Part shown: positions 29,800-63,980 of the stretch, in pieces
Position numbering within the stretch: position 1 is the first letter of the stretch
Layout: the number at the start of each line of letters is the position of its first letter
Origin: Pseudomonadota bacterium
GTDB lineage: Bacteria; Pseudomonadota; Gammaproteobacteria; JAADHS01
Direction: 5' to 3'
DNA length: 64,000 nucleotides
Assembly (NCBI GenBank): GCA_021821045.1
Contig: JAKACW010000018.1
Span: 1-64,000 of the forward strand
Notes under the pieces: model-generated
Seen by the model: the letters and a program-made list of their open reading frames with translations, nothing else
The model's database searches: none
What the model was told of the DNA's origin: nothing
Position numbers and translations under genes: made by a program

Positions 29800-29958
29800 T
29801 TTGACGACTTTGCATCTCCCCACGATTGACTCAAACAATCGCTCTCCACTACTCTAGACGCTTCGCAGTTCGCGCGCAGTGTGCAGGGTCTTTATCCTCG
29901 CTGTCTCTACCTGTGCGCTCATCACAACCAGGATGGTTTTTCCTCGAGGGACCGAATA

Positions 29959-35228: not shown

Positions 35229-36431
35229 CTATTTACCTAACAAAGCGTCGTACGCCGCAAGCAAGCGCGGCACTTCGTGTTCCCACGCCAGTTCGTCCCG
35301 CACACGCTTTTGACCGATCTGGCCCATGCGCTGCCGCGCCTCAGGGTCATCCAGCAGTCCGATGATCTTCTCGGCAAAATCCTGGTGATCATTGTGCTTG
35401 GCGTAGAGCGACGCCTCTTGCGCACTATAGCGGCCTTCGGTGAGATCGAACTGTACGATCGGCTTGCCCAACGCCATATACTCCATGATTTTGTTCATGG
35501 TCGATTTGTCGTTCATCTCGTTGGCCACATCGGGATTCACGCAGATATCCGCAGTGTTCAACATCGCTAGCAGGTCATCATCCGGAACGCGGCCGGTGAA
35601 GGTAACGTAGTCGGCCACGCCCAGTTCTTGCGCCATCTGCTTCATCGCGTCCAGCGAAGTGCCGCCGCCGACCAAGCCGAAGTAAATATCGGTGCGCTTT
35701 TTATCGTGAACAATGTAACGCACCGCGTTCAATAAAATGTCGATGCCCTCCTGCTTGCCCATAACGCCGACATAGCCAACCAGATACTGGCGACCTCGCT
35801 TTAGTTCGGGCGCCGGCGGCAGCACCTTCAAGCGGCTCAGATCCGGACCGCTGCGCACGACGAAAACTTTGTCCGGCGCCATCCCACCGCGTTCAATGGC
35901 GATGCGTCGGTAGGACTCATTGGTTGCAATGGAGACATCGGCCGTCTTAAACGTCATCCGTTCGAGCCAGCAAATCACCTTGTAGAAGAAATCCCGCCGG
36001 CCGAACTTGGCGTCGTAAAGCTCCGGATTGATATCGTGGTGGTCGAACAGATAGCGCTTGCCGAACAGCTTGTAGAAAAGGCCGATGATGAAGATCGTAT
36101 CAGGCGGATTGCAGGCGTGAATGGCGTCGAAGCCGCGCGTGAACAAGACGCGCAACGACAGCATAAACTCCCAGAATAGGGCGGAGGCGTACTCAAGGGC
36201 GTACCCTACCGCGCCCTCGGCCTCCAACGGCAAAGGATGGCGATAGATGTGAACATCGTCGATGACTTCGTACGATTTCTCGTACCCCTTGCCCTTGGGG
36301 CAAACGACGCTGACCTGATAACCCGCCGCAACAAGCGTCTTCGATTCCTGCCAGACCCGCCGATCGAACGGCAGCGGCAGATTCTCGACGATTATGAGTA
36401 CACGGCGGCCCTTACCAGCAGATGCCGTCAT
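35229..36431 (-). CDS. GT4-family glycosyltransferase (WbuB-like)
   Basis: About 400 residues. The GT4 pattern is clear: RVLIIVENLPLPFDRRVWQE at the start, FDAIHACNPPDTIFIIGLFY in the middle of the first domain, then VGYVGVMGKQEGIDILLNA, and the donor-site EMNDKSTMNKIMEYMALGKP. The ATG at 36431 overlaps the end of algD by 20 bases, so it is the last gene of that operon and translationally coupled. Transfers an unknown sugar to the lipid-linked repeat unit (inference from context). Confidence 0.88.
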   Translation of the reverse strand: MTASAGKGRRVLIIVENLPLPFDRRVWQESKTLVAAGYQVSVVCPKGKGYEKSYEVIDDVHIYRHPLPLEAEGAVGYALEYASALFWEFMLSLRVLFTRGFDAIHACNPPDTIFIIGLFYKLFGKRYLFDHHDINPELYDAKFGRRDFFYKVICWLERMTFKTADVSIATNESYRRIAIERGGMAPDKVFVVRSGPDLSRLKVLPPAPELKRGRQYLVGYVGVMGKQEGIDILLNAVRYIVHDKKRTDIYFGLVGGGTSLDAMKQMAQELGVADYVTFTGRVPDDDLLAMLNTADICVNPDVANEMNDKSTMNKIMEYMALGKPIVQFDLTEGRYSAQEASLYAKHNDHQDFAEKIIGLLDDPEARQRMGQIGQKRVRDELAWEHEVPRLLAAYDALLGK

Positions 36432-37725
36432 AGGTGCTTCCGTCGCTCTTGCGATCGGCGACCCGGGCAAGATCGACGACAACCTGGCCGGCTTTCAATT
36501 TACCCGCCAGCGCCTTGAACTCGGGATCGCCGTTGCCGACGATGATCGTCTGGGCATGGGCCAGCACCTCATCCATCGACTGCACCATCAAACGGGAAAT
36601 GTGCGGGATGTGGTTCAAGATATAGTCCTTGTTGGCGCCCACCAGGCTGGCGATGTTGACGTTTCGATCGTAGACCTTGATGTCGAACCCCTTCCCGACA
36701 AGACGCTCGATCATTTCGACCAGAGGGCTTTCACGCAAATCGTCGGTGCCCGCTTTGAAACTAAAACCAAGCACGCCGACTTTCCGATGGCCTTTCTTCA
36801 GCACCATTTGCATGCCGCGCTCCAAGTGCGCTTCATTGGCGTTCATGAGCGAGCCTAAAAGCGGCACATCAAGATCCAATGAACGCGCTTTATACGTCAG
36901 GGCACGCACGTCCTTCGGCAAACACGAGCCGCCAAAGCAGAAGCCGGGTCTCAGGTAGTACGAGGATAGGTTCAGCTTGTCGTCCTGGCAGAAGATCTCC
37001 ATAACCTTGTGGCTGTCAATGCCCACGGCTTTGCAAATCGCGCCAATTTCATTGCCAAACGCCACTTTGACCGCATGCCAGTTGTTGTCGGCATATTTGA
37101 CCATCTCGGCGGTTTTGACGTCGGTACGAATCAGCGGCGCGTCGAGATCTTTATAAATCTCCGCCAGCATCTCGCCGCTGCGCTTGTCGGTTTCACCGAT
37201 GACGGTTTTCGGCGGGTTATAGAAATCGTAAACAGCCGTGCCTTCGCGCAAAAATTCGGGGTTGTTACATACGCCGAAGTCCACACCCGCCTTCTTGCCT
37301 GAGTATTGCTCGAGAGTCGGGATGACCACATCGGACATCGTGCCCGGCAATACGGTGCTGCGCTGGACAACGATGTGAAAACCGGATTTTTTCTTCAGCG
37401 CCGCGCCGATTTCTTCGCACACCTTGCGCACATAACGCAAATCGAGGCTGCCGTTGATCTGGCTGGGCGTGCCGACGCAGATAAACGACATCTCGGAGTT
37501 GTTGACTGCTTCTTCGACGCTGGTGGTCGCGCGTAACTTGCCCGCGTTGACGGCGTCACGAATGATGTCGCCAATCTCAGCTTCGATAATGGGTGTCTGA
37601 CCTTTATTGATTAGATCGACCTTGGCTTGGTAGGGATCGACGCCGATGACGGTGTGACCTTCTTTGGCCAGCACGCCGGCCCCAACCGCGCCGACATACC
37701 CCAGCCCGAACACGCTGATTTTCAT
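36412..37725 (-). CDS. algD: GDP-mannose 6-dehydrogenase AlgD
   Basis: Oxidises GDP-mannose to GDP-mannuronic acid, the precursor of alginate-like polymers. 437 residues, the same as Pseudomonas AlgD. Start at ATG 37725 with AAGGAG upstream. NAD site ISVFGLGYVGAVGAG, then SFICVGTPS, RSTVLPGT, GKKAGVDFGVCNNPEFLRE, the catalytic cysteine near residue 268 in PGFCFGGSCLPKDVRALTY, and a C-terminus ending GICW as in known AlgD proteins. These favour GDP-mannose over UDP-glucose dehydrogenase. It lies between a heparinase-like gene and a GT4 gene; no alg8, alg44 or algG is seen in the window. Confidence 0.93.
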   Translation of the reverse strand: MKISVFGLGYVGAVGAGVLAKEGHTVIGVDPYQAKVDLINKGQTPIIEAEIGDIIRDAVNAGKLRATTSVEEAVNNSEMSFICVGTPSQINGSLDLRYVRKVCEEIGAALKKKSGFHIVVQRSTVLPGTMSDVVIPTLEQYSGKKAGVDFGVCNNPEFLREGTAVYDFYNPPKTVIGETDKRSGEMLAEIYKDLDAPLIRTDVKTAEMVKYADNNWHAVKVAFGNEIGAICKAVGIDSHKVMEIFCQDDKLNLSSYYLRPGFCFGGSCLPKDVRALTYKARSLDLDVPLLGSLMNANEAHLERGMQMVLKKGHRKVGVLGFSFKAGTDDLRESPLVEMIERLVGKGFDIKVYDRNVNIASLVGANKDYILNHIPHISRLMVQSMDEVLAHAQTIIVGNGDPEFKALAGKLKAGQVVVDLARVADRKSDGSTYDGICW

Positions 37726-37798
37726 TGTCTTAGACTCCTTCGTCTTCCATTCGCGCCGCGGGATCGGTACATCGCGATCCCTCGCAAGCTTATCGACA

Positions 37799-39781
37799 TC
37801 ATCGCAACTGTCTGAACGAGACCCGGGTTGTGAAAGTCGATGACCCGGAAATGTCCGCACTGCAAACAATGGTTACCGTAGGTTGTTTCACATCAAAACG
37901 CCTCGAAACCCACCCTAAAGGTCGGGTTTCGTCGCCACGAACCAGGAGCGGCGACGCAAAAGCCTGGTCGAAATCAAAACGCACCTGCCAACCCGGAATT
38001 TCCGCAAAGGCGCGGTGGCCGTCAATTCGCACAGCCACATTCTCGGCAAAGTGCCAGAATTGTTCCACAGAATGCGAAGCGTTGCACTCAAGTTCGTCCA
38101 CCACCTGCAAGTGCAACGACTCTCCGTCCAGTCGCAGATTGCGGCGGTGTTTGACCGAATCTGGCAATCGCACATAGCCGTCGTGCCACCCTTCGAACTC
38201 ACCCTGCTGCGCACTATCGACGAACTTCGTACAGTGGGCATTGGCGTGTTGCATCCACATGAAATTTCCGCCAATAACGGACTGGTCCTGCCGATCCACC
38301 CGAACGGTGTTATGCGCCGACGTGCCGCGAAAATAATCGCGCCATTTCTTTTGCGTGTGGTATGCGTAAGTGCCGGGATCGACGAGAATCTCAGCGCCGC
38401 CGCAGGAAAGGGTAAACGCCAATGCATCGGCGTGACCGTGGGCCGCGATGGCCGAATAGCCGAGCGGTCCGGCATCGACCACGATCTTGATTTCATCCTC
38501 CGTCCCCTCGCGGTGGCTCAGAACGAAATAACCCGCCTCGGGGAACTGACTGCGCTTCGGTTGCGAACTGGCAGTTTTCGCCATCGCGAAATCTTGCTTT
38601 CCCTGTTCGCCGAACAACCACAGATTGCGCTCATCGACCGCACCGGCTGCCTGCTGAAAGTCACTGCGGCCAAACAAAATAGCCGCTGTCGCCAACATGG
38701 AGCGAAACGGATCGAATTGCGGCGCCGGATCAAGCCGCGTGACGAAACCGTCATCGGCATCCCCGATCATCGGCACATTCCCGCCGGCATCCCGCACCGC
38801 AAGAATAAATTCCGCCATGCGCTCCAAACGCTGCCAGTAACGGGACGAGAAATCGCTGCCGGCGGCCCGGGCCGCCAAACCCGCCGTCAACAGAAACTCA
38901 AACACAAACTGCTGGTAGGCAGTGGTCTGTTCCCGATCAACGCCGTCCTCAGTTACCTGTTTGACTGCTTCTTCCTCTAGAATCCGGGTCGCCACCCCTC
39001 GCCAACCCAGGCACTCGCGCCAATAGGGCCACTGCAACGAGCCCACCAGTAATCCCGCCGCCTCGCCGATGAGATGGTTGTTCGCCGAGGAGTAGCGCGA
39101 AAAATAACCGGCGATGAAATGCATGTGCCGGTAGATGCTGGCGATCCAGGTAGTTTTGAAATCGCGACCGCCGACCCCTTCGAACAGGGGCGAGTCAACC
39201 CCGCCGACAAGCTTCCAAATAACGCTCCAATTGATGAGCCGAATGGCGAGTTCCAGTGCACTGGTCCAGTTCGGGCCTTTGTTGTAAGGGCATTGATCGA
39301 ACCACGACGACAACGCCTGTTGCAACCCGTCGAGATAACGCTTGTCTTTTGACAGATAATAAGCCTGCGCCAAGGTGACAAGGTGCAAGTGGCGATTCGG
39401 CTCCCAAAGGTATTTGATGTCGCCTACCAGATTCTCGTCGCGGTAATTGAGTAACTTACCGAATGCGAGGGGAGCGTCCTTTCCGGTTCGGTAGTCCCGG
39501 TTCCACCGGGGCGGAAACCCCACTTCTACATCATCCAGCGCGAAGATCGACAACTTCCCCCGTAGAATGCGCTCCGCGGCCGCAATATATTTGTCCTTAT
39601 CAATATCCGCCGCAGGATGCGCCCATGACCCCGCGCTCGCGACGATGTTCGGCTGGGGAATCGTTTCGGCGACGCCTACGCCCCGACTCTCGAGCCGGGA
39701 CTGAAGCGTCTTTCGAGCCCGATATCCGATTTCGGGCACCGACATGCGGCGCAACCGATTGATATACCATCCGATGTTCAT
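37799..39781 (-). CDS. Heparinase II/III-like (alginate-lyase superfamily) protein of the exopolysaccharide operon
   Basis: About 660 residues without a signal peptide. Begins NIGWYINRLRRMSVPEIGYR, the N-terminus typical of heparinase II/III-like proteins encoded in polysaccharide clusters. The alpha-toroid domain (TSALELAIRLINWSVIWKL; SANNHLIGEAAGLLVGSLQW) is followed by the beta-sandwich domain (AIAAHGHADALAFTLSCGG, GTSAHNTVRVDRQDQS). The conserved His and Asn positions of the lyase family are present, so activity on a uronic-acid polymer is plausible. Its ATG overlaps the stop of the upstream DUF5672 gene (ATGA). Confidence 0.82.
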   Translation of the reverse strand: MNIGWYINRLRRMSVPEIGYRARKTLQSRLESRGVGVAETIPQPNIVASAGSWAHPAADIDKDKYIAAAERILRGKLSIFALDDVEVGFPPRWNRDYRTGKDAPLAFGKLLNYRDENLVGDIKYLWEPNRHLHLVTLAQAYYLSKDKRYLDGLQQALSSWFDQCPYNKGPNWTSALELAIRLINWSVIWKLVGGVDSPLFEGVGGRDFKTTWIASIYRHMHFIAGYFSRYSSANNHLIGEAAGLLVGSLQWPYWRECLGWRGVATRILEEEAVKQVTEDGVDREQTTAYQQFVFEFLLTAGLAARAAGSDFSSRYWQRLERMAEFILAVRDAGGNVPMIGDADDGFVTRLDPAPQFDPFRSMLATAAILFGRSDFQQAAGAVDERNLWLFGEQGKQDFAMAKTASSQPKRSQFPEAGYFVLSHREGTEDEIKIVVDAGPLGYSAIAAHGHADALAFTLSCGGAEILVDPGTYAYHTQKKWRDYFRGTSAHNTVRVDRQDQSVIGGNFMWMQHANAHCTKFVDSAQQGEFEGWHDGYVRLPDSVKHRRNLRLDGESLHLQVVDELECNASHSVEQFWHFAENVAVRIDGHRAFAEIPGWQVRFDFDQAFASPLLVRGDETRPLGWVSRRFDVKQPTVTIVCSADISGSSTFTTRVSFRQLR

Positions 39782-41304: not shown

Positions 41305-42474
41305 CTAAAACGACGCCCTCAGTTGTGCGATCCAGCGGCTGTAAGTCCAGACATCACCCGGCACGTTGGATGCCCTGTCGTACGTCTTGTACCCGAGCGT
41401 CCCGACAATTCGGCGAGTCAGCGCGTAAGAAAGCGACGCCGCAACAGATTTGTTCGTATCTTCCCGAGCCGCGCCTGTTGGCGCCACTGCCGCGTCGCCC
41501 TCATAGATCACGTCCTCATACAGCAAGTCCAGCGATCCCGACAACTTCGACGTCATCGAAAGCGTTGGTTTGATGCTGATGCCTTGCGTGACCACATAGC
41601 CCGAAATCTCTTCCCTCCCCCGCGCCTGGTTCCAAGCCCGAACAAGCAACCGCGTCTTTCCGGTGGCGTCCCAGGTGTAGGCCGCACGCATCAGGCGACC
41701 GTCATAGTCGAACTCCGACCCCTGCGCGGCGTCCACCTCGGAATAACCAAGCTCAAAGTTAAGTTTCGACTTGCCCGTAGTCTCCCACTGAAAGGTTCCG
41801 CTCATCGCCGTAAATGTATAGTCGTTGTCAAACGGTTCGCCATTGACAATTTGCGTGTTCAGATAATCGCCTTCCGTAACCGTGTAGCGCGCACCTATCT
41901 TCGTGCGCGCGCCGGTCGCATACCGCACTTCCCCGATCGCCGTGGTAGCGTCGAATTCCACCTCGGGCCGGTTATCAACTCGACTCTGCTGCGCGTCAAA
42001 CGCACCGACAAGCTCCCAACGCGGGGTCAACTCAAAAATGAGAGTTCCCGCCAAATTAGTGTCTTTTCGGTCATCCTTGGTCCGGGTCGCCTGCTCGTCG
42101 AACGAACCGATGGTTTCGCTGTAGTTGGCCCGCAAATCGCCGTTCAATCGATTGCCCACGACCCAATCCCAGGTGAAATTACCATCGATATCATCGTGAT
42201 CCAGAGAGTCGTTGACGTCGTAAGCGACATGAGTGTATTTCCCAGCGAAGCCGAAATTTTGCCTGCTGACCGGCAAGTTGATATCCACCCCGGCGCCCAA
42301 TTCGAGGTAGGTATCACTTTCCGGATTCGTGGTACTGCGAAAAATATTGTCATCATCAACATAGCGAAGATCGACAAATGGCCGGATGGTGTCGCTTATT
42401 TGAGCAAGCGCGCCGACTGGCACGAGCGCGCACAAAGCCAGGCAGGCAACAAATGTTGTTCTCAGAACGGCCAT
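41305..42474 (-). CDS. epsL: EpsL-like outer-membrane beta-barrel protein
   Basis: About 389 residues, start ATG 42474 with GGGGTGA upstream. Signal peptide TTFVACLALCALVPVGALA, then alternating amphipathic strands over the whole length (for example FVDLRYVDDDNIFRS, RLNGDLRANYSETIG, SKLNFELGYSEVDAA) and a C-terminal strand ending in F (SRWIAQLRASF). This matches the outer-membrane protein called EpsL in methanolan and exosortase-associated exopolysaccharide clusters. It could be an export or assembly pore. The match to EpsG at the far right of the window supports this reading. Confidence 0.68.
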   Translation of the reverse strand: MAVLRTTFVACLALCALVPVGALAQISDTIRPFVDLRYVDDDNIFRSTTNPESDTYLELGAGVDINLPVSRQNFGFAGKYTHVAYDVNDSLDHDDIDGNFTWDWVVGNRLNGDLRANYSETIGSFDEQATRTKDDRKDTNLAGTLIFELTPRWELVGAFDAQQSRVDNRPEVEFDATTAIGEVRYATGARTKIGARYTVTEGDYLNTQIVNGEPFDNDYTFTAMSGTFQWETTGKSKLNFELGYSEVDAAQGSEFDYDGRLMRAAYTWDATGKTRLLVRAWNQARGREEISGYVVTQGISIKPTLSMTSKLSGSLDLLYEDVIYEGDAAVAPTGAAREDTNKSVAASLSYALTRRIVGTLGYKTYDRASNVPGDVWTYSRWIAQLRASF

Positions 42475-42567
42475 TTCGGAATCACCCCACACGCATATTG
42501 GCAAAAGTGCTGAAAGTATAAGTTTCGCGTCCGCCAGACGCAAAGCCGCTAGCTACCACATCGACCA

Positions 42568-43383: not shown

Positions 43384-43815
43384 CACGGGTCATTTTACAT
43401 GGAAGGCCGATCGAAATGTCTGAAGCGGTATTGAAAACTTGCCTAAACCGCCCCTCCATTCACCGCACCAATCGATTCGGCAACAAACACCATCAAGAAT
43501 AGCTCAATTCGGCAGGTGGAAACACCCACTCGGCCCGTCTTAAGATCTGCGACTCAATCCACGGTCCTCACGAGGCACGTACCTGCAGCTTCGACGGCCC
43601 TACTTTACGACCGTCGAAAAGCACCTTTTCGATATTTATTTTTCAGTTTCTGGGGTGTAACATGGCGCTCGCGAGCGACAATCGGACGCACGCTCCCCGA
43701 TTTCGGCTTCAGTTTTGGCGCATTTTGCGAACTGCAGTCGGGAGCAACTCGCCTCATCAGACCTCTCTTTGGACTTTATGAACCCGAATCTCTTTTTGCT
43801 TGCGGGAAGCCACCA
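43384..43815. other. Intergenic region between divergent glycosyltransferase and heparinase-like genes
   Basis: 432 bases without a supported gene. It has one perfect 8-bp hairpin, TTCGACGG at 43590-43597 with CCGTCGAA at 43611-43618, and an A/T-rich patch around 43626-43646 that could hold a promoter for the plus-strand gene. An open reading frame extends through it in frame with the heparinase-like gene, but the ribosome site and membrane-protein start at 43816 fit better. Confidence 0.45.
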
Positions 43816-46038
43816 ATGCTGCTACCGAAAACATCGCCATTGACTCTTCTCCAAAGCACCGCGTATTTTGCCGCGATTACAGCCTCGGCCGCTGTTGCAT
43901 CTCGCATACTGGCCGAGCTTGCACCGACGCGCGTCGTGGAAATCTATTTAGTAGCCGTTTTGGGCTTCATAGTCGCCGCGACTTCGTGGGTGTTAGGTCG
44001 ACGCATCCCGAGGACGAGATTCGCGCTTTTCGTCGCCGCGCTGCTGCTCACCAGTGGCCTCCTAGCAGGCGGCTATCTAGCGGTCAAACGAAACCTGGAC
44101 ACGAAATTTCCGCCTGTTGCCAAATTTATCGACATTGACGCGGCCCGGCCCGGTAACGACGAAACCGCGCCGGCGCGGCAGAGCGGGTTGCTTGCCATCT
44201 TGCGAGAAACGCCCGGTTTTCGACTGCGTCTCTTTGACTTGCTGAATGCGCCGGTTCCACAGGAAGAGGTACTTAGCAAAGCTGCGGAATTGGTCCAATC
44301 TCGTTACCAGTTACTGACGTACGACTCCGTGCAGTTACCGCCAAGCCTCACTTGGGACGAAAATCCGCACCAGGACCGAAGCTGGAACTGGGCACTTCAC
44401 AATATGGACTATGTCGTGACGTTGACTCGTGCCTATGAAGCGACAAACGATGCAGCATTCTTGCAGCGCGCGGAAGACATCGCTCTCGATTGGATAGACG
44501 TCAACACGAAATACTTTTTGAAACCACCATCCGAGTTTTCATGGGGCGATCATACGACAGCCCTACGCCTACTAAATTGGTTGTATTTTTTCGATGTTTG
44601 GAAAGGGTCCGAACTGGCTACCCCTGAGCACGTAGAAACGATTTTTCGCGCGTTACTCGGACATGCGCAGATGCTGTCAGATGCGAATTTCTATAATGAC
44701 AATCACAACCATGGCATCGACCAAGATCGAGCGCTTCTCGCCTTTTCGTTGATGTTCCCCAACACCGCAAGATCCGCGCAATGGATGGGCCTGGCGTTAA
44801 GCCGACTAAGCTCCCAGGTGCAATTTGCAGTGTCGCCAAATGGAATTCACCTAGAACATTCCGCCGGCTATCAGCTTTACGGAATGCTGCAATTGCAGAA
44901 GACGCACTCATTTCTCCAGCAGTGGCAAGTCCACCACGGCGTGGTCGACTCGATGACCAGGAACATCGCGCTAATGGCCGATTACGTGCCGAACCTAGTC
45001 AAGCCAGACGGATTTTTAGTGAAGATCGGGGACACGGCCAATGCACGCATAACCGGTTTTCGTGAACAACTATCTCTTGTTGAAGCGGCCCCGCCCGCAC
45101 TGAGAGACCTCGCTGAAAACGGCACCACGAACAAACTGGCGAATATATCTTTGGCCTTTCCCGCCGAGGGGTATGCTCTAATACGCGATTTCGAGAACGG
45201 ACTGCGGGATTTTCAAAAATCCTTTTACCTGTTTTTTTCCGCCGCCGCACACCAAGGCCGTGCCCATCGTCATGCGGACGACCTCAGTTTTGTGATGTCA
45301 CACGGGGGACGAGAAATTCTCATTGACCCGGGCATGCACAGCTACAAGCGTGGCGATCCTGGAAGAGCATACGTTGTGAGTGCCGCTGCCCACAATTCTG
45401 TGATCGTGGACGGTAAGTCGTATCAAGGTTGGGATACTAGCTTCGACGGCTATTTCGCCAATGATCGATTGACACTGATACGGGGATCGCACCGCAATTA
45501 CCCCGGATTCGAGCACCTCCGGTGGTTACTCTATCTTCGCCCGGCAATGCTGATTGTACTTGACCGCGTCCGGCCGATCAGTGGTTCAAAAACTAACGCA
45601 GATGTCCCATTTGAACAGGTGTTTCATTTTTCATCAAAACTAACCGTAACGTTGGATGAGGCCGAAGGCCGAGCGACGGTTTTATCCGACACCTCCGATC
45701 AAGAGGCAGTCCTGTTATTGACACAAGTGGGACCTCAGAAGGGTTCTATGCGTGTCGCAAAGGGAGAAGAATCGCCAATGCAAGGCTGGGATTCGCCGGC
45801 GCGCGCGCAATTGGTTCCGACGCCAACCTTGGTTAGCCTGCAACGTGGAGCGCAAGCGGAGTTTGTGACGGTGCTTCAGATTCCCGCAACTGGCCAGTCG
45901 TTGGACGAGCTGGAAGAAATACGGCGAAGCCTTCAGGGCTCCATAGAAGCACAATCTTTTAGAATCGACTGGACTGAAGGCAACAGCCCGCATAAACTCA
46001 AGCTGGATCTAAGCACAAACGGCGTTCTCATCGACTAA
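43816..46038 (+). CDS. Membrane-anchored heparinase II/III-like protein
   Basis: About 740 residues from ATG 43816 (GGGAAG upstream). Three hydrophobic segments at the N-terminus (residues about 10-95: STAYFAAITASAAVASRIL, VVEIYLVAVLGFIVAATSWV, FALFVAALLLTSGLLAGGYL) replace a normal signal peptide. The alpha-toroid domain follows (WNWALHNMDYVVTLTRAY; NDNHNHGIDQDRALLAFSLM; GIHLEHSAGYQLYGML), then the C-terminal beta-sandwich (GRAHRHADDLSFVMSHGG, DPGMHSYKRGDPG, AAAHNSVIVDG). His and Tyr positions of heparinase II/III-type lyases are present. Probably periplasmic, tethered to the inner membrane; it could trim the polymer during assembly. Confidence 0.78.
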   Translation: MLLPKTSPLTLLQSTAYFAAITASAAVASRILAELAPTRVVEIYLVAVLGFIVAATSWVLGRRIPRTRFALFVAALLLTSGLLAGGYLAVKRNLDTKFPPVAKFIDIDAARPGNDETAPARQSGLLAILRETPGFRLRLFDLLNAPVPQEEVLSKAAELVQSRYQLLTYDSVQLPPSLTWDENPHQDRSWNWALHNMDYVVTLTRAYEATNDAAFLQRAEDIALDWIDVNTKYFLKPPSEFSWGDHTTALRLLNWLYFFDVWKGSELATPEHVETIFRALLGHAQMLSDANFYNDNHNHGIDQDRALLAFSLMFPNTARSAQWMGLALSRLSSQVQFAVSPNGIHLEHSAGYQLYGMLQLQKTHSFLQQWQVHHGVVDSMTRNIALMADYVPNLVKPDGFLVKIGDTANARITGFREQLSLVEAAPPALRDLAENGTTNKLANISLAFPAEGYALIRDFENGLRDFQKSFYLFFSAAAHQGRAHRHADDLSFVMSHGGREILIDPGMHSYKRGDPGRAYVVSAAAHNSVIVDGKSYQGWDTSFDGYFANDRLTLIRGSHRNYPGFEHLRWLLYLRPAMLIVLDRVRPISGSKTNADVPFEQVFHFSSKLTVTLDEAEGRATVLSDTSDQEAVLLLTQVGPQKGSMRVAKGEESPMQGWDSPARAQLVPTPTLVSLQRGAQAEFVTVLQIPATGQSLDELEEIRRSLQGSIEAQSFRIDWTEGNSPHKLKLDLSTNGVLID

Positions 46039-46181: not shown

Positions 46182-48200
46182 CTAGCGCTCAACCGCACCT
46201 ACATCAGGCTGGCCACCGCGGGCCCGCCCGAAGTAGTCAGTTTGCACCTGTGGAATCGCCAATCCCCTGCCGTTTGCCGCACTGGTGGATGAGATGCTCA
46301 GACCATCGGACGACAAACCAGGGTTACCGACAATCGCACCTGAGCCTGTAAATCCATTGGTTGCATTGTTACGCGAATAATAGAGATTATTTCGTACAAC
46401 CGTCCCACTCCCGCTTATCAATCGAAGCAGCGTACCTTCAGCCCCAACAAGAATATTGTTAAAAAATGAGTTATTGTAGGGTGGTATATCCGCCATCTGA
46501 TAGCCCGGATATCCCTCCACAACCCCTACCGCAATCGCACCTCGATAAGCGTCAACAATGGTGTTGTTCGCGATAATATTGTTCCCTGTAGGCGGAAACG
46601 AACTCCATTTGTCGGGCGAAAGCTGGAACTTTCCATAACAATTGACCGAGATACCGTTGCCCCGGTAAGTATCGACGACGACATTATTCCTCACAACATG
46701 ATTCTCGCCGCGGACTGATATGCCGCTACGAGTATGCAAGAGATAATTTCCATCAACAACGTTCTTATTGCCCTCACGAAGAGACAATCCGCCGGCCACA
46801 TTCCGTAAGGTATTGCCACGGATGACATTGCCACTAGCTTTGATCTCAATCGTCTCGCGCGCAACATTGACGAAACTATTAAATTCAATTTCCGCGCGCG
46901 TCATCAAATCAGGAGTTCCGCGACCGCCGGACCAGCCGGAACCCTGACCAATCTGAATTGCCTCTCGGCCATTTGATTTGGCTTCGGAGCTATTCTGGAA
47001 TATGTTGTTGTCAATTCGAGTTCCAGTGCTCGGCCCACTTCGAACGTCAAATGCCGATAGATAGACGGCGATACCGTTCGCCCGAAGGTCATCAAACAGC
47101 AAGTGATCAAACCTATTTCGATGCGAGAGCTCCTTGACCTCGACGATTCGTTCACCATCGACTGTCCCGCAGGACCGAAATTCGCTATCGGTGAATCTGT
47201 TATTGCCTGCGCGCGCAAAAACGACCGCAAAACTTGCGCAGCCGCGGAACTTGAATCCGCCAATCAGATTGTGCGAGCCGGTAACATGTAAGGCTCGAAC
47301 GGTCTGTCCATCAAAGATTACACGGCCTGGATTTCGAGCTGTGTAGATAATTGGCCGATCTGCCGTACCCGACGATGTAATCTTGAAGCTTCCGCCGCGA
47401 TAGACTCCGTCTTCAAACAGTACAATGTCTCCTGGTCTCAAGGAGCGGGTAATGGCATCTAGGTTTGCCGGTGAAGAAATTCGATAAATCGTTCCAGTGC
47501 TTCTGGCAATGAGATCGCGCCAATTCACTGAATCCTCATTTGACCACCAATTTCCACTGGATGGTCCGTTTGCTGCGGTCGGTACATATGGGGTACTCGG
47601 CGATGCCGCAGGCGTCGACGGCGCAATCGGTTTCGCGGCATCAGTTCCCGAAGCTGGCGCAACGACCCCGCCCCCAGACCCCAAGAAGTTAATTTCCGCC
47701 GCACTCGCCCACGGGTTCCCGTTCACTTCGGAGAGCGCGACTAAACGAACGTAGCGGCCCGAGCGCGCATTGAAAATGACCATTTTCTCCTGGCCGTCAT
47801 TGCCAAATGTGCCAGTTGCCACGGGGGCACCCAGATTGGTCGGCGAAGTGCCGACGTAAAGGGCATATTTGGCGATGCGTCCATTGTGTGACCAGGAAAA
47901 GCGAGTGGTCGGGCGCGGCAGGTATTTGAAGCCGCTGATACTGTAGGTGTTACCCAGGTCAATTCGAATTTCGTGCGGACCCGCTTTATTTACTCGCGAC
48001 CACTCTGTATGCCATATGGTCTTTGGATTCCCGTCAAATGCATTGACCGCCGCACCGTTTTCGGCGGAAAGCTCCTGGCTGGTCGTCCACAAGAGCTTCC
48101 AGCCTTTCTGCGGAATAACCGTCGCCGCGCTCACCGAACCGGCTGCGAGCGACAAACCTAACCCCAACGTAACAGTCTTAAAGATGCGTCCAAATATCAT
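46182..48200 (-). CDS. Secreted discoidin (F5/8C)-PL6 polysaccharide lyase-like protein
   Basis: About 672 residues from ATG 48200, with GGAG upstream. Signal peptide TLGLGLSLAAGSVSA. A discoidin-type carbohydrate-binding domain lies at about 30-175 (SAENGAAVNAFDGNPKTIWH, ARSGRYVRLVALSEVNGN). A Ser/Pro-rich linker precedes a right-handed beta-helix of PL6 type from about 225 to the end (SLRPGDIVLFEDGVYRGG, NRFDHLLFDDL, NGREAIQIGQGSGW, many NN/GN turns). The E-V-K-x-L-S-H-x-N-R stretch supplies Lys and Arg where PL6 lyases have their catalytic pair. PL6 enzymes cut alginate or dermatan; mannuronate in this locus favours alginate-like chains. Confidence 0.8.
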   Translation of the reverse strand: MIFGRIFKTVTLGLGLSLAAGSVSAATVIPQKGWKLLWTTSQELSAENGAAVNAFDGNPKTIWHTEWSRVNKAGPHEIRIDLGNTYSISGFKYLPRPTTRFSWSHNGRIAKYALYVGTSPTNLGAPVATGTFGNDGQEKMVIFNARSGRYVRLVALSEVNGNPWASAAEINFLGSGGGVVAPASGTDAAKPIAPSTPAASPSTPYVPTAANGPSSGNWWSNEDSVNWRDLIARSTGTIYRISSPANLDAITRSLRPGDIVLFEDGVYRGGSFKITSSGTADRPIIYTARNPGRVIFDGQTVRALHVTGSHNLIGGFKFRGCASFAVVFARAGNNRFTDSEFRSCGTVDGERIVEVKELSHRNRFDHLLFDDLRANGIAVYLSAFDVRSGPSTGTRIDNNIFQNSSEAKSNGREAIQIGQGSGWSGGRGTPDLMTRAEIEFNSFVNVARETIEIKASGNVIRGNTLRNVAGGLSLREGNKNVVDGNYLLHTRSGISVRGENHVVRNNVVVDTYRGNGISVNCYGKFQLSPDKWSSFPPTGNNIIANNTIVDAYRGAIAVGVVEGYPGYQMADIPPYNNSFFNNILVGAEGTLLRLISGSGTVVRNNLYYSRNNATNGFTGSGAIVGNPGLSSDGLSISSTSAANGRGLAIPQVQTDYFGRARGGQPDVGAVER

Positions 48201-48665
48201 GCTTAACTCTCTCCTAAAATTAACTGCTTTATTGCCCACGGGCTCCGCCCGGGTGGCCGACTCCTTCGTCGGCCCACGCTTGGACGCGGTATTTAATGCA
48301 GATGCCGTGCCATATTTATTTTTATCTATGAAACCAAACCTTTATGGAAGATGGGGGGATAGCGCCGCGATCGGAGTACGCGCAAAATCGTCTCTGTATA
48401 GAGACAGCTATTCCGCAAACCACTGAACTGGGGGCGATTCGTTCGGTCGCTGCATAGCGACAAGGTAATTTGCCCTTCTTACGTTTACTTCCCGCGAGAC
48501 TCGACTAGCAAACCGGAGCAAGTGTGCTTGGCGTCACATCCAGGACCCCCGCCACGTTGACCGCACTTAACGTGCGGCCAATCTGTGACACAGTTCGGCT
48601 ACAACTAGGCGCCAAAGACCGATGCTTACCTGGCACGAGGAAAGATTCTCCGCGAGGAAGCATTG
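48201..48665. promoter_or_regulatory. Divergent control region between the two PL6 genes
   Basis: 465 bases with no gene. Contains three small symmetrical sites: GGCCGAC/GTCGGCC hairpin at 48255-48274 (leader of the minus-strand gene), the compact palindrome GTCTCTGTATAGAGAC at 48390-48405 and CCGCAC-TTAAC-GTGCGG at 48561-48577. The 48390 site has the form of an operator for a dimeric regulator. No convincing sigma-E/AlgU-type promoter was found by eye. Confidence 0.4.
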
Positions 48666-51600
48666 ATGACGGAAGCAAAGACAAACGGGCTATGGTTGGC
48701 AGCAGCGCTAGCGGTTACGCTGGCAGGATGCGGCGGCGGTAGCGGTGGCGGTTCGAGCACGACGGAGCAAACCCAGGCTGATCGAAGCCTCTCATCCCCG
48801 ATCTTGGTCGAGTTCAATGGTCTAAAGGGGCCTTTGGCCTTCGCACAGATCAAGCTCTACCCGATGGACACGCGTTTCTCGGGCCTTTACGACCCTTCAT
48901 CCACTCCCGTCGCCGAAACCCAAACGGACGAGACCGGCCGCGCGCAGGCGATCAGCATTCCCGAAGGCCTCAAGCCGCCGTTCGTCGTCGTTGTGGACGG
49001 CACGCGTGCGATGGACGTGACCACTTCGCGCACACCCGTCATCCCGACCCTGACCACCATCGTCACGGCGCGCATGCTCGTCAACGGAGCGGCAATTTAT
49101 GCAACCCCGCTCACCACGCTAGCCGTCACAATGACGGCAACCGCCGTCGAGCCCGCCGGCTCGAGCGACGCGATCGCCGAGAGATTCGAGCAATCCGCTA
49201 AGACGGTGGCATCCACTTTTGGATTCGGACTGCCTAAAGAAGTCGACATCCTGACCACTCCCGCCGTGTTCTCGTCCCGCACCGGCACAATCGATGGTCA
49301 ACAGCAAGCAGCCCATCATCGTGCAGCGATCGAAGCATTCGCATCGATTACATTCGAACTGGCCCAACGCGCCAACGAGCCTACGGATGCATTGATCAAT
49401 GAACTTGCCAAGGACTTGGCAAGCGACGGAAAACTCGACCGTTCGTCTGGTGGTGAAACACTTGATAAAATCGATTTAGCGGTCGTATTCCAGGATCCCG
49501 CTCGATTGGTTATTGCGGACAGCACGATCACGGTGCAGGACATCGGAAGCGTAATGACCCAGGAATCGACGGCCAGCATCCTTCAAGGGACGGCCATCGA
49601 GCCGGTCGCGCCGCTAACCCTGGCCCCCGCCTCCGAAAGCGCCGACAGCGACGGAGACGGCGTCTTGAATATCGATGAAACGAACGCCACGGTGCCGAGC
49701 ACTGAGCCTGTCAGCCACCACGGCCTCATCCCCCAATCCGCATGGCGGTTGGTTTACACAAACAGCCAGGAAACGGCTGCCGAGAACGGTGCTGCGGTAA
49801 ATGCATTTGACGGAAATCCTGCTACGTACTGGCACACCGAATGGTCCAAGAGTCAGCCCATACATCCCCATGAACTTCGAATCGATCTTGGCGCGGCGTA
49901 TGAAATATCGGCACTGCGTTATTTACCGCGCCAGGACCGCTCAACCAACGGGCAGGTAACAGACTACCGCGTCTACGTCAGCAACGACGGAAAAACCTGG
50001 GGCGACCCGATCACGACCGGGACGCTCCCCAACACAAAGCTTGAGCAGAGCATTTCCGTTCCCGCTACCCTAGCCCGTTATATTCGCTTTGTCGCGATGA
50101 GCGAGATCAACAACAACCGATTCGCGTCCATTGCGGAACTCAATGTGATCGGAAGGATTGCTAAAGATCAGAACATCATCGTAAGCCCAACGGATGTCAC
50201 ACCTACTTCAACCACCACAACGTCGACTACGACGCAATCGTCTACGACTACAACGCAATCGTCCACGACTACGACAAAATCGCCTACCAGCACGACCACG
50301 AGCACTGCCGGAACAACGACATCGACGACGTCGATGCCAAGCACGACCACCACAAGCTCAACAACGACCAGCACCAGAAGTTCCACTTCGACGAGCAGCA
50401 CGACGACGACAACACAACTCAATCCTCCGGTTGACGGACACGGCGTAATACCGCAGACTTCCTGGCGTCTTGTCTACACCGACAGTCAGGAAACCAACCG
50501 TGAGAACAGCGCCGCCGTGAATGCGTTCGACGGCAATCCCTCGACGTACTGGCATACTGAGTGGTATCTCAGCCAACCGGCGCACGCCCATGAGATCCAG
50601 ATTGACCTGGGCGCGACATATGAATTATCAGAGCTACGGTACCTGCCGCGCCAGGACACCAGCAACAACGGCCAGGTCAAGGACTTCCAAGTTTTCTTAA
50701 GCAACGATACCAGCAAGTGGGGCAGCGCCATCGCCAGTGGTACGTTCGCCAACAGCAAGGCCGAGCAAAGTGTTTCCGTGCCTCTTACCACTGCACGCTA
50801 TGTTCGATTCGTCGCGTTGAGTGAGGTCAAGGGGAGGGTATTTACCTCGGTAGCCGAGATAACGGCTTACGGAGCACTCGCACCAACGCCGAGCCCTGAT
50901 CCCGTTGCTGATCCGTCGAATCAACCCGGAACCAATGATCCTGTCGACATTGTGCCCACGGGCCCAGCCGTCGATGATCCCATCGACTGGCCGACGCAAA
51001 TTGCACAGGCAACGGGAAGTATCTACTTCGTTTCAACTGCCAGCGAGTTTAATGCGACGGCAGCGGTCGCGCAGCCCGGAGACGTTGTAATTTTGAAAAA
51101 CGGGACGTATTCCGGTTGGCAACTTAAAATTCCCTCTCGTGGCACGGCGGCTAATCCCGTGATTTACACCGCACAAACACCGGGAGGAGTCACTTTCACG
51201 GGACGCCATCAGAACGGATTGGTAGTCACCGGCGACCATAACATCGTGGGTGGGTTTCAGTTCAGAGACTGCGGTGCCTACTTCGTACGCTTTATTAAGG
51301 CGAACCACAACCGCTTAACCGACTCCAAGTTCTGGTCATGCGGAGAGGGCGACACTAACCGACTGATCGAGGTGAAACAGCTTTCCCACCATAACCGCAT
51401 CGATCACCTATTGATGGACAACATCTTGTCCAATGGCATCACCGTCTTTCTCGATCAGTTCGACGTGGCTAATGGTCCGAGTCAGTACACCCGAATTGAT
51501 CACAACGTCATTCAAAACAGCGGCGCAGGAGCGACCAACGGACGCGAAGCCATACAAATCGGCCAGGGCTCAGGGTGGTCCGGCGGGGCCGGGACCGACA

Positions 51601-52322
51601 TGCTCGAAACCGTGGCGGTGGTCGAATATAACTATTTCACAAAAATGACCCGAGAAATAATCGAGATCAAATCCAGCCGAAACCTGGTGCGTTTCAATCG
51701 ACTTGTGGACGCGGAAGGTAGCCTATCGATCCGACAGGGAACCGAAAACGTTGTCGACAGCAACTTCCTACATAACACAAAATCCGGAATTACTGTGAAA
51801 GGCGAGAACCAGGTTGTTACCAACAACGTGGTCGTCGGATCACGCAACTTCGGAATCAGCATAACCGCCTACGGTAACTTCCAGCTGACCGAAACTAAAT
51901 GGTCCAGCTTCCCTCCAACGGGCAACATGCTGATTGCGCACAATACTCTAATTGACAACGTCAAAGGAGCCATAGACTTGGGCAGAAAGGTGGGTTACGT
52001 CGGCCTAACGAATGCCGAATTGCCTCCATATAACATTACATTTATCAATAACGTCTTCGCCGGGAGCTCGGGTACTCTTTTCAGTCACATCAAGAGTACC
52101 GGAACTCAGATTGTAAAGAACCTCTACCATACGTCGGGTACTGCCTCGATTGGGGACCAAGGCACCGAACCGGTGGTTGGCGACCCGAAGCTAGATGGTA
52201 ACTTCAAGCCGACCGCGGGCAGCATCGCGGCCAGCGCCGGAAAAATGCTGTCATCTGTCAAATTGGATGCGGCCGGAAAAACGCGGCCCCTCAACCCGGC
52301 CTTGGGAGCATTTGAGAAATAG
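48666..52322 (+). CDS. Lipoprotein with two discoidin domains and a C-terminal PL6 lyase-like beta-helix
   Basis: 1218 residues. Lipoprotein signal (GLWLAAALAVTLAGC then GGGSGGG). An N-terminal region of about 290 residues is unknown. A calcium-loop motif (DSDGDGVLNIDE) lies near residue 328. Discoidin 1 is at about 350-500, a Thr/Ser-only linker at about 512-584, discoidin 2 at about 590-735, and a PL6-type beta-helix from about 775 to the end (AQPGDVVILKNGTYSGW, EVKQLSHHNRIDHLLMDN, NGREAIQIGQGSGWSGG). The helix is closely similar to that of the neighbouring secreted protein, so the two are paralogues. Likely an outer-membrane-attached enzyme or binder for the exopolysaccharide. Start ATG 48666 with GAGGAA upstream. 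Confidence 0.8.
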   Translation: MTEAKTNGLWLAAALAVTLAGCGGGSGGGSSTTEQTQADRSLSSPILVEFNGLKGPLAFAQIKLYPMDTRFSGLYDPSSTPVAETQTDETGRAQAISIPEGLKPPFVVVVDGTRAMDVTTSRTPVIPTLTTIVTARMLVNGAAIYATPLTTLAVTMTATAVEPAGSSDAIAERFEQSAKTVASTFGFGLPKEVDILTTPAVFSSRTGTIDGQQQAAHHRAAIEAFASITFELAQRANEPTDALINELAKDLASDGKLDRSSGGETLDKIDLAVVFQDPARLVIADSTITVQDIGSVMTQESTASILQGTAIEPVAPLTLAPASESADSDGDGVLNIDETNATVPSTEPVSHHGLIPQSAWRLVYTNSQETAAENGAAVNAFDGNPATYWHTEWSKSQPIHPHELRIDLGAAYEISALRYLPRQDRSTNGQVTDYRVYVSNDGKTWGDPITTGTLPNTKLEQSISVPATLARYIRFVAMSEINNNRFASIAELNVIGRIAKDQNIIVSPTDVTPTSTTTTSTTTQSSTTTTQSSTTTTKSPTSTTTSTAGTTTSTTSMPSTTTTSSTTTSTRSSTSTSSTTTTTQLNPPVDGHGVIPQTSWRLVYTDSQETNRENSAAVNAFDGNPSTYWHTEWYLSQPAHAHEIQIDLGATYELSELRYLPRQDTSNNGQVKDFQVFLSNDTSKWGSAIASGTFANSKAEQSVSVPLTTARYVRFVALSEVKGRVFTSVAEITAYGALAPTPSPDPVADPSNQPGTNDPVDIVPTGPAVDDPIDWPTQIAQATGSIYFVSTASEFNATAAVAQPGDVVILKNGTYSGWQLKIPSRGTAANPVIYTAQTPGGVTFTGRHQNGLVVTGDHNIVGGFQFRDCGAYFVRFIKANHNRLTDSKFWSCGEGDTNRLIEVKQLSHHNRIDHLLMDNILSNGITVFLDQFDVANGPSQYTRIDHNVIQNSGAGATNGREAIQIGQGSGWSGGAGTDMLETVAVVEYNYFTKMTREIIEIKSSRNLVRFNRLVDAEGSLSIRQGTENVVDSNFLHNTKSGITVKGENQVVTNNVVVGSRNFGISITAYGNFQLTETKWSSFPPTGNMLIAHNTLIDNVKGAIDLGRKVGYVGLTNAELPPYNITFINNVFAGSSGTLFSHIKSTGTQIVKNLYHTSGTASIGDQGTEPVVGDPKLDGNFKPTAGSIAASAGKMLSSVKLDAAGKTRPLNPALGAFEK
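50205..50415 (+). repeat. Degenerate repeats encoding a Thr/Ser linker
   Basis: About 210 bases built from variants of CGACTACGACGCAATCGTC and ACGAC/ACAAC units. They encode a low-complexity stretch of almost only Thr and Ser (with a few Gln, Lys, Pro, Arg) between two discoidin domains. Imperfect tandem repeats of this type are prone to length change. Confidence 0.8.
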
Positions 52323-52534: not shown

Positions 52535-54103
52535 CTACGGATCAATCGGCTGCTCGCTTACCCTCAGCTTGTCGAAATAAATATATCCCAGTCCGGGCGC
52601 ATAGTTGGCGCGCAAATACAAAATCACCCGTTCGATTCCCAAAGACTCCACCGAGCGGAACCGCATGGCCGTTCCCTGAAACGCGAGCTTGCCGTCCACC
52701 CACATTTCGGACAGACCGTCATTACGACCCGGCGTATTGAGCTTCAAGTGCTGCAAAACGTGGACCCAGCGGCCAACAGGAAAATTGCCTGCGGTCTCGT
52801 CCCATAATGTGTCGCCGCTGGTCAAGTCTTCCTGGTCCATGTGATAGATATAGGCGACGATCTTGCCGCGACTTGCGAAGTTGGTAAAGGTGCTGAAGCC
52901 GTTCTGCCCATCAGGCTTCTCGTGGATGTAGTCGGGTCCTGACAACGCCAATAGTTTGCCTGTGGTAGGCCATTGGAAATTTGAACTGAACATTATCCGG
53001 TAAGACAAATACAGTTCGTTGTAGGCGCGATTTAGCATGACGTTGGCGCTGATACCAGTTTTGGTTTCCTTGATATTGGCCGGTATAGTCACGCGCAACG
53101 ATGCACCTTCGTAGGCGTTGCTGTCGCGGACGATATGTAAGAAATTCTCATCGATGAACGTGCCCGTGAAGTTGACGCTCAGGCTGGGCATGTCGCGCTG
53201 CAACTGCGTCGTCGAATACGGGCCTGCCACATTGTTGTTGAAGTCAATTTGAAGAACGCTGGACATGGGTGATACGACAAGCGTTTGCGATGGTGCTTGA
53301 GCGCTTAGGTTATCGTTGTCTGTGACTGTAAAGCTGATGGTGTGAGTGCCTTCCGACAAGGTGCTGGATACGAAGTTTTGGTTTACCCCGATGACGCCAT
53401 CGAGACTGGAGCGCCAGCTATAGGACGCGATGACGCCGTCAGCGTCACTGGCAGAACCGGAGAAGGCCACAGGGGTGCCAACGACGGCGGGGTTCGGCGT
53501 CATAGCACTAATGGCGGCTTGGGGTGGCGTCAAAGGTGGATGCTCCGCGGTTGCCGGTACAAACTTGACGGCATCGGCACTAAAAGAGTAAGGACCACCG
53601 GCGTGCAGCGCTTTGGGCGTCAAAGAAACAGAGCCGCCGACGGTGTTGAAGTCGTATTCGCCGAGCAATTGCCAGAGACCGTTGTTGCTGCGTTGATCAA
53701 TGTTGTCCACGTAGTGAGTGCCGGTGGCGGATTCTATCGTATACGTCGTCTGCGGCGATCTACTGCTGGCAGCGACCCAGCGTGCAAAGACGCGATAACG
53801 ACCGGCACTGGGGAGACTAGCCGGCCAAGTGTAAATCATTGTGTTGTAGCCGTAGCGGTGATTGCCGCCGTAGGCAGCGCTGTCGTTGCCGAGATACCCG
53901 GATTCGATAGTACCCGGATCGCCGTTGTCGACAATGATGTCGTTTCCGTTCGCCAATTGAGATACGAATAGCGTCGCCAAGACAATTAGCAGAGACAACG
54001 GCGACACCTGTTCACGCGGCGAGGGTCTTCGGGCCGCCCTGAACCGGGCGTCGCTTCCGCGAGCAGGGCAATTGGACCGCGAAGGCGTTGCTTCAATAGG
54101 CAT
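52535..54103 (-). CDS. Secreted golvesin-PKD-PL14-like protein (putative alginate lyase)
   Basis: 522 residues; ATG 54103 has AGAGGGAA upstream. A basic N-region and hydrophobic segment (LSLLIVLATLFVSQLANG) form the signal peptide. A golvesin-type binding domain is at about 55-185 (DNGDPGTIESGYLGNDSA, AGRYRVFARWVA, LLGEYDFNT, SADAVKFVP), a PKD domain at about 195-280 (FSGSASDADGVIASYSW), and the C-terminal 240 residues resemble PL14-type lyases or related jelly-rolls (LYLSYRIMFSSNFQWPTTGK, LNTPGRNDGLSEMWVDGKLA, YIYFDKLRVSE). PL14 includes alginate lyases from algae viruses and molluscs. Substrate is inferred from the locus. Confidence 0.68.
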   Translation of the reverse strand: MPIEATPSRSNCPARGSDARFRAARRPSPREQVSPLSLLIVLATLFVSQLANGNDIIVDNGDPGTIESGYLGNDSAAYGGNHRYGYNTMIYTWPASLPSAGRYRVFARWVAASSRSPQTTYTIESATGTHYVDNIDQRSNNGLWQLLGEYDFNTVGGSVSLTPKALHAGGPYSFSADAVKFVPATAEHPPLTPPQAAISAMTPNPAVVGTPVAFSGSASDADGVIASYSWRSSLDGVIGVNQNFVSSTLSEGTHTISFTVTDNDNLSAQAPSQTLVVSPMSSVLQIDFNNNVAGPYSTTQLQRDMPSLSVNFTGTFIDENFLHIVRDSNAYEGASLRVTIPANIKETKTGISANVMLNRAYNELYLSYRIMFSSNFQWPTTGKLLALSGPDYIHEKPDGQNGFSTFTNFASRGKIVAYIYHMDQEDLTSGDTLWDETAGNFPVGRWVHVLQHLKLNTPGRNDGLSEMWVDGKLAFQGTAMRFRSVESLGIERVILYLRANYAPGLGYIYFDKLRVSEQPIDP

Positions 54104-62960: not shown

Positions 62961-63980
62961 TTAGAATTCGTTGAGAATGCTTCCGGCGAACTCGACGTCA
63001 GCTTGCTGCAGCGAGGCTTTTAGTTTGACCGCCGAGTCCAGCTTGGTGCGATCGCGCCGCACCACCATCACCGCACTGCCGGCCGCGCCGGCCAGGGCCT
63101 GCACATCGGCCGTATACTGCCCGGCCGGCGAATCGACAATGATCACCTCAAAGAAGCGCTTCAGTTCGCGCAGAATATTTGCGAACCGCTCGCCGCTGAA
63201 CAATTCGGAAGGGTTGGGCGGCACCGCCCCCGCACCAAGCACGGAAAGCCGCGTGAAAAACGGCACCGCCTCGGGCAGCAAATCGAGTTCGTCCTTTTTT
63301 ATCCTGCCGGACAGCATCGCCGACAAACCGACTCGGCGGGAGAACCCGAAAATCTCATGCTGTCGTGGCGTACGCAGGTCGGCATCGATGAGCAGCGTGG
63401 ACTTGCCGAGCTGCGAAAAACTTACCGCCAAATTCGCAGCAACATAGCTGCGCCCTTCCCCGTCGCCGGGGCTTACCACCGTCAGCACTTTGCGCTCGGG
63501 GCTCAACCACCGAAAACAAAGCTGCCCTCGAATGGCGCGGAAAATTTCCGCCTGTTTGCCGAAGGGCTCATAAGCCGTAACCAGCTCCTCCCCGAACGTG
63601 CCGTCGCTGGGCCGCACGGTCGGGTAATTGAACTGACGCGCTAACGCGTATTGAATGTCATCCTCGCCGAGCAGCTTGAGTCGTTTGGCGGCCTCACCGA
63701 AGAAAATGCCGTCTTTCTCCTGCAGGGCGACGATGCGCTCGACGTCGTTCGTTGTGAGCTTGCCGGCTTCGATCAGAATATTTCCGATGTTACGGTCATC
63801 GCCGGGCGGGTCGGCCTCGAAAGATGACTCATCGCCAAAAGCGCGTTCACGCCAAGCATCTTCGCCGTGCTGGCTGCGGGGAAGCGGTTCGACCACCGAC
63901 ATCACCGTTGCCGAATCATCGTCCTCAACCACAACCTTGCTCCCCGAAGGCGGGATCTTACTTTCCTGATTGTCAGCCAT
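62961..63980 (-). CDS. epsG: EpsG-like chain-length determinant tyrosine kinase / polysaccharide ATPase
   Basis: 339 residues. The N-terminus (about 1-55) is acidic and disordered. An MshEN-like domain is at about 60-125 ([20 protein letters not shown] and [20 protein letters not shown]), followed by a BY-kinase-like P-loop domain: [20 protein letters not shown] around 169-188 (a Walker A with GEGRSY in place of GKT/S), Walker A' [15 protein letters not shown], and VIIVDSPAG (Walker B). This order matches EpsG of exosortase-associated exopolysaccharide clusters. No C-terminal Tyr cluster is visible (ends GSILNEF). The rest of its operon, expected to hold the Wzc-like co-polymerase and Wza, lies beyond the window. 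Confidence 0.82.

Follow-up and report, generated by a model that had tools for sequence, protein, structure and literature searches.

The 64,000-nucleotide stretch analysed here (positions 1 to 64,000 of contig JAKACW010000018.1, assembly GCA_021821045.1; in the following "the window") originates from a gammaproteobacterium of the lineage JAADHS01 and carries, within an exopolysaccharide (EPS) locus, two divergent paralogous genes whose products, P1 (46182-48200) and P2 (48666-52322), combine discoidin domains with a beta-helix of polysaccharide lyase family 6 (PL6). We favour, at a probability of roughly 0.6, the reading that P1 and P2 are duplicate PL6-type lyases of this locus, which remodel the cell's own uronate polymer in the matrix and at the cell surface. 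In this proposal, the discoidins would bind the polymer, probably through galactose-like residues, and the beta-helix would cut it next to a uronic acid by beta-elimination. Lys454 and Arg475 (P1) or Lys1002 and Arg1023 (P2) would form the acid/base pair, and the usual Ca2+ would probably be dispensable, as it is for AlyF. P1 would be released and act at a distance from the cell, where it trims or loosens the matrix; P2 would stay on the outer membrane via its lipoprotein N-terminal domain (NTD) and hold or trim chains at the surface. Judged from the targeting sequences, such a division of labour between soluble release and cell-attached trimming appears plausible.

Both proteins are assigned to PL6 by profile, predicted fold and the conserved putative catalytic Lys/Arg pair. 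The Pfam profile Chondroitinase-B/PL6 (Chondroitinas_B; curated cut-off 24) matched P1 with 71.9 bits (6.6e-20) and P2 with 91.8 bits (6.1e-26), and the F5/8 type C profile detected one copy in P1 (2.2e-17) and two in P2 (3e-48). A structure model from a real alignment was built for P1 (pLDDT 92.3 for the PL6 domain); its best 26 PDB matches in Foldseek were without exception alginate lyases of PL6 or chondroitinase B (best E 1.5e-16, Pedsa0632), and AlyGC, chondroitinase B and AlyF were among its matches. The fold of P2 is deduced from the 49% identity of the two PL6 domains across 449 columns. Maximum-likelihood analysis groups P1 with P2 as sisters (support 99/98), within a clade that also holds G001, a metagenome-assembled genome (MAG) labelled 'Chromatiaceae' which represents a second genus of the family, and two gammaproteobacterial MAGs. 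This clade adjoins sequences from Armatimonadota and is separate from the AlyGC/BcelPL6 group. The duplication therefore probably postdates the split from G001. A genome search detected P1 and P2 as the only PL6 genes of their own genome, and plasmid records yielded only distant relatives of at most ~30% identity; relatives were recovered by a contig scan with a four-sequence alignment.

Thus, the divergent paralogous discoidin-PL6 pair proposed in the original prediction, made from the DNA letters alone, is recovered by Pfam, by sequence identity and in the tree, with 465 bp between the genes. The motifs it named as shared, EVKxLSHxNR and NGREAIQIGQGSGW, occur in both proteins, and the difference in targeting that it described, a plain signal peptide in P1 versus a lipobox in P2, can be read from the sequence. 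The additional elements listed for P2, i.e., an N-terminal region, the Ca-binding-type loop DSDGDGVLN, two discoidins and a Thr/Ser linker, are likewise all present, and the N-terminal region turned out to be a recurring domain. With its lipobox Cys near the N-terminus, P2 qualifies as a predicted bacterial lipoprotein, so that P1 would be released and P2 tethered to the cell.

The placement of active-site residues was read from alignments, not from coordinates. The putative catalytic Lys and Arg of P1 align with the corresponding pairs of AlyGC and BcelPL6, and the AlyGC R241A mutant structure (5gkq) aligns at P1 Arg475. Both residues were invariant in all 40 aligned relatives, including close ones with equally altered surroundings. 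EVKxLSHxNR was ruled out as catalytic motif, and NGREAIQIGQGSGW does not hold the catalytic residues either, as the equivalents of AlyGC K220 and R241 sit in IEIK and LS(L/I)R. The surroundings of the pair are altered in P1, P2 and three gammaproteobacterial relatives. Near the Lys, we take N181, E213 and E215 of AlyGC to be the Ca2+-coordinating residues (letters and positions checked); the N181 and E215 positions are retained in P1 and P2, whereas the E213 equivalent is absent, and the set is consequently incomplete. The original prediction had asked whether Lys, Arg and Ca-site residues are placed for catalysis: the PL6 fold and the correct alignment of Lys and Arg held, while the Ca site, with one acidic position deleted, and the adjoining His and two Arg, all replaced, did not. 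For BcelPL6, K249 and R270 are proven catalytic residues (PMC6879350). The signature R-E-x-I-x-I-K around the catalytic Lys was found in P1, P2 and AlyF (5z9t) and in none of the other PL6 sequences compared. AlyF is Ca2+-independent (PMC6879350), with a water-assisted mechanism according to a review (PMC8618178), and a missing Ca-site residue therefore does not bar PL6 membership. AlyF, however, is active on polyG and has retained RHG at the catalytic Arg, where P1 and P2 have REG and RQG. From this handful of residues we infer that P1 and P2 may be working beta-eliminases that dispense with the usual Ca2+ and do not read uronate runs like alginate lyases. Alginate appears an unlikely substrate, because the Ca site, the His and two substrate-binding Arg are altered; in fact, the class markers of PL6 alginate lyases (BcelPL6 R216, R294 and His271) are missing from both proteins, and no alginate exporter was found in the genome.

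All three discoidins are NedA-like, with a Micromonospora sialidase as best PDB match, and the two copies in P2 are 64% identical to each other. The positions E522, H539, W542 and R572 of NedA, which we take to form its galactose site (positions checked), are all retained in P1 and in both P2 copies; G001 lacks the Glu and the His. The discoidins of P1 and P2 are thus likely to bind galactose-type residues.

The locus is of the XrtB/EpsL type and methanolan-like, with relatives of EpsE, EpsF, EpsG and EpsL occurring together. The EpsE match lies above its profile cut-off, while EpsF, EpsG and EpsL fall slightly or somewhat short of theirs; the EpsF and EpsE relatives are located on the same contig downstream of the window. 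Besides a UDP-glucose/GDP-mannose dehydrogenase family protein (UGD) as uronic acid source, the window also holds a GDP-mannose 4,6-dehydratase, glycosyltransferases, and sulfotransferase-like and acetyltransferase-like proteins, and a polymer with uronic acid and deoxyhexose may fairly be expected. Five lyase-like genes of three folds lie in the locus (P1, P2, two heparinase II/III-like, one PL14-like). In G001, a discoidin-PL6 gene directly adjoins EpsL. A conserved divergent pair was ruled out for this genome, as its second PL6-like lipoprotein, which has lost Lys and Arg (L020:184-1887), sits near nusA/infB on another contig (C389) and not in an EPS locus.

The P2 NTD has no Pfam match and no PDB sequence relative, and its single-sequence fold model reached a pLDDT of 40.5. 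The domain recurs in lipoproteins of other EpsL-type EPS loci. EpsL was present in 25 of 369 sampled genomes of the class; we compared up to ~20 kb on each side of 23 of them and added the window and the contig of G001. UGD occurred in seven of these 25 loci, a heparinase II/III-like together with a PL14-like gene in three (the window, G352 and G194), and PL6 in the window and G001 only. The NTD was found in 5/7 loci with UGD and 0/18 without (Fisher 4e-4), or in 4/5 versus 0/12 when collapsed by family (0.002), in a test formulated after the pattern had been seen and with several loci cut by contig ends. In the four other positive EpsL loci, the NTD precedes a PL14-like domain (G194, G257 twice, G352 and G359, the latter case being cut by a contig end and judged by eye). 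G194 also has the NTD ahead of non-PL6 beta-helices, and three genomes for which no EpsL was listed have it ahead of long Asp-rich repeats instead. Phylum-wide, the NTD is rare (3/398 sampled). Copies lie at L162:5296-6126, L161:9745-10584 and L166:18378-19289 as well as in L189, L190 and L191, and a PA14-like insert interrupts the domain in G205 and G359. The PL14-like protein of the window itself has no NTD.

Since the NTD recurs before PL14-like modules, P2 appears to be the lipoprotein lyase that such loci typically have at the surface, with discoidin-PL6 replacing PL14. The NTD-PL14-like lipoproteins of UGD-containing EpsL loci (L161, L162, L166) share lipobox, NTD and kind of locus with P2, whereas their catalytic module is PL14-like and that of P2 discoidin-PL6. 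Tentatively, uronate-type EpsL loci might carry an interchangeable surface-lyase chassis, in which a lipoprotein NTD outside Pfam is grafted to PL14-like, PL6 or perhaps other beta-helix folds, and the gammaproteobacterial PL6 clade might constitute a Ca2+-independent branch directed at the producer's own heteropolysaccharide, not alginate; as a combined picture, we consider this possible but somewhat doubtful.

Several observations weigh against P1 and P2 as active lyases of an own uronate polymer. The acidic Ca-site position that corresponds to AlyGC E213 shows a deletion in P1, P2 and G001, and the two other MAGs carry Arg there. P1 has Glu and P2 has Gln in place of the His that follows the catalytic Arg (H271 in BcelPL6), and the BcelPL6 H271N variant is inactive (PMC6879350). 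Moreover, BcelPL6 R216 is replaced by Gln and R294 by Ser/Thr; these two residues are given as 98% conserved carboxylate contacts at -2 and +2. On the side of the locus, the family of the UGD also makes other uronic acids, and the EpsL survey is small, with five NTD-positive loci and several loci ended by a contig edge. The lost His, -2/+2 Arg and acidic Ca position could mean that catalysis was lost with binding retained. P1 and P2 would then be matrix proteins with inactive PL6 folds, which together with the discoidins act as secreted and anchored lectins cross-linking polymer chains with one another and with the cell. The three discoidins with intact binding positions fit such a role, as does the G001 lipoprotein, whose PL6-like domain lacks Lys and Arg; WceF, which is encoded in the stewartan locus and has a beta-helix fold, works slowly and agglutinates with its polymer (PMC7949094). 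We nevertheless consider it rather unlikely, as P1, P2 and every one of the aligned relatives still have the Lys and the Arg, among them close ones with an altered site, and as the similarly built site of AlyF functions without Ca2+ (PMC6879350). Given that both residues are gone from the PL6-like paralogue of G001, a member of this taxonomic family, their retention is not forced by the fold. Conversely, PL6_3 enzymes are active on alginate although the usual Lys is absent and the Arg mostly absent (PMC8953905), so that residue loss or retention is no proof either way.

Other explanations keep P1 and P2 catalytically active and assign them another task. AlgL, encoded in the alginate operon, clears polymer stalled in the periplasm during export (PMC8829089), and since the P1 and P2 genes also lie inside a biosynthetic locus, they could serve the same homeostatic purpose rather than act on the matrix. 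This seems improbable to us: the Gly, not Asp, after the P2 lipobox and the long linker would suit the outer membrane and outward display, and discoidins on both proteins suit matrix binding. Even less credit is given to a foraging function, in which alginate or glycosaminoglycan lyases for external algal or animal polymers would have come to lie in an EPS locus by chance. Most studied PL6 enzymes are indeed alginate or dermatan lyases (PMC4954714), and a locus with five lyase-like genes would be in line with polymer degradation. However, the uronate-binding residues at -2/+2 of alginate PL6 enzymes are replaced in P1 and P2, the adjacency to EpsL is common to a second genus, and the P2 NTD tracks EPS loci. 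A PL7 search of the own genome gave no match either, which counts little as its controls also gave none.

In comparison with known systems, the P1/P2 beta-helix and Lys/Arg pair are common to the PL6 alginate lyases AlyGC (5gkd), Pedsa0632 (7o7a/7o84) and BcelPL6 (6qps) and to chondroitinase B, with sequence E values down to 3e-26; identity in structural alignments is ~17-24%, and P1 and P2 differ from them at the E213-type residue, the His and the -2/+2 Arg. Unlike these enzymes, P1 and P2 carry discoidins and sit in an EPS biosynthesis locus. WelR, the welan gum lyase of Sphingomonas, is a beta-helix lyase for the producer's own EPS which was modelled on AlyGC and is not inhibited by EDTA (PMC7899989); in contrast to P1 and P2, it has no reported signal peptide, a laminin-G-like domain instead of a discoidin, and no paired partner. 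RbmB of Vibrio cholerae, whose gene lies in the matrix cluster, is a lyase with a parallel beta-helix of PL6-like fold; it cuts the cell's own Vibrio polysaccharide VPS (PMC11637428) and was matched by the P1 model in Foldseek (2e-6), but is a single secreted protein of a different family with 12% identity. AlgL (PL5) shares the location within the biosynthesis operon of its own polymer (PMC8829089), yet is a periplasmic alpha/alpha toroid without binding modules. WceF, finally, is a glycosidase encoded in the locus of its own polymer (PMC7949094). In view of these precedents, the placement of lyases in an EPS locus is not surprising by itself, and the original prediction went too far in calling it unusual; other sampled EpsL loci also carry PL14-like and heparinase II/III-like genes. 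The novelty lies in the pairing of the putative lyases, in their altered PL6 site and in the apparent swap of the chassis. If this reading is correct, the NTD together with a lyase domain would offer a sequence-readable handle on the trimming or holding of an entire class of uronate EPS at the cell surface, name candidate enzymes for degrading such matrices, and mark a PL6 branch which generic annotation would miscall alginate lyase or chondroitinase B.

The layout of the pair and its surroundings is given in Table 1. For P2, ATG 48666 is the best start, one codon behind the TTG (48663) at which the mechanical open reading frame (ORF) begins; the ORFs span 685 aa (P1) and 1219 aa (P2), and both frames are open at the tabulated places. 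A sigma-70-like site was searched for in the 465-bp intergenic region as part of a shared divergent promoter, and none was found. Within the Thr/Ser linker of P2, a 21-bp DNA unit occurs three times (50224-50287), a possible site of length variation.

Table 1. Features of the P1/P2 pair and of neighbouring EPS genes (positions in the window; TM, transmembrane; RBS, ribosome-binding site).
Feature	Position	Strand	Basis or remark
P1, secreted discoidin-PL6 protein, 672 aa	46182..48200	-	best start ATG 48200 behind RBS-like AGGAGAG
P1 signal peptide-like N-terminus (MIFGRIFKTVTLGLGLSLAAGSVSA), without lipobox Cys	48123..48200	-	read from sequence
P1 discoidin (F5/8 type C, NedA-like CBM32)	47679..48119	-	Pfam 2.2e-17; NedA 1w8n E 4e-28
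P1 PL6 right-handed beta-helix domain	46185..47531	-	Pfam, model (pLDDT 92.3), Foldseek
P1 putative catalytic Lys454 (K467 in 685-aa ORF)	46839..46841	-	aligned with AlyGC K220, BcelPL6 K249
P1 putative catalytic Arg475 (R488 in 685-aa ORF)	46776..46778	-	aligned with AlyGC R241, BcelPL6 R270
P1-P2 divergent intergenic region, 465 bp	48201..48665		
P2, 1218 aa: lipoprotein NTD, Ca loop, discoidin, Thr/Ser linker, discoidin, PL6	48666..52322	+	
P2 lipobox L-A-G-C, then Gly	48720..48731	+	read from sequence
P2 NTD	48783..49616	+	
P2 Ca-binding-type loop DSDGDGVLN	49644..49670	+	sequence
P2 discoidin 1	49725..50156	+	Pfam; NedA E 2e-34
P2 Thr/Ser-rich linker, ~80 residues	50196..50438	+	
P2 discoidin 2	50451..50882	+	Pfam; 64% identical to discoidin 1
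P2 PL6 domain	50979..52319	+	Pfam; 49% identical to P1 PL6
P2 putative catalytic Lys1002 (K1003 in 1219-aa ORF)	51669..51671	+	
P2 putative catalytic Arg1023 (R1024 in 1219-aa ORF)	51732..51734	+	
UGD, uronic acid source	36412..37869	-	
Heparinase II/III-like protein, no predicted TM segment	37799..39814	-	
EpsL-type outer-membrane protein	41305..42543	-	TIGR03014 E 1.4e-71, 241.6 bits vs cut-off 275
Heparinase II/III-like protein, two N-terminal hydrophobic segments	43516..46038	+	
Golvesin-C/PKD/PL14-like protein	52535..54103	-	
10-TM protein, polymerase-like	58595-59857		
EpsG-type tyrosine kinase	62961-63980		

An exosortase gene was not found in the locus, whose contig (C64) ends at 70.9 kb, and was located solely on contigs C120 and C134 of the own genome, which with its 140 contigs looks like a MAG. 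Contig C134 (exosortase gene at C134:12155-12925) also encodes a second protein with a P2-type NTD (L197:1625-2959). Residues 65-116 of the EpsG-type kinase gave a weak match, below cut-off, to an MshE-type c-di-GMP motif (NF053729). Adjoining the EPS locus, a large lipoprotein (29881-32994; SACGGGGGGGD) shows weak matches to Ig-like domains.

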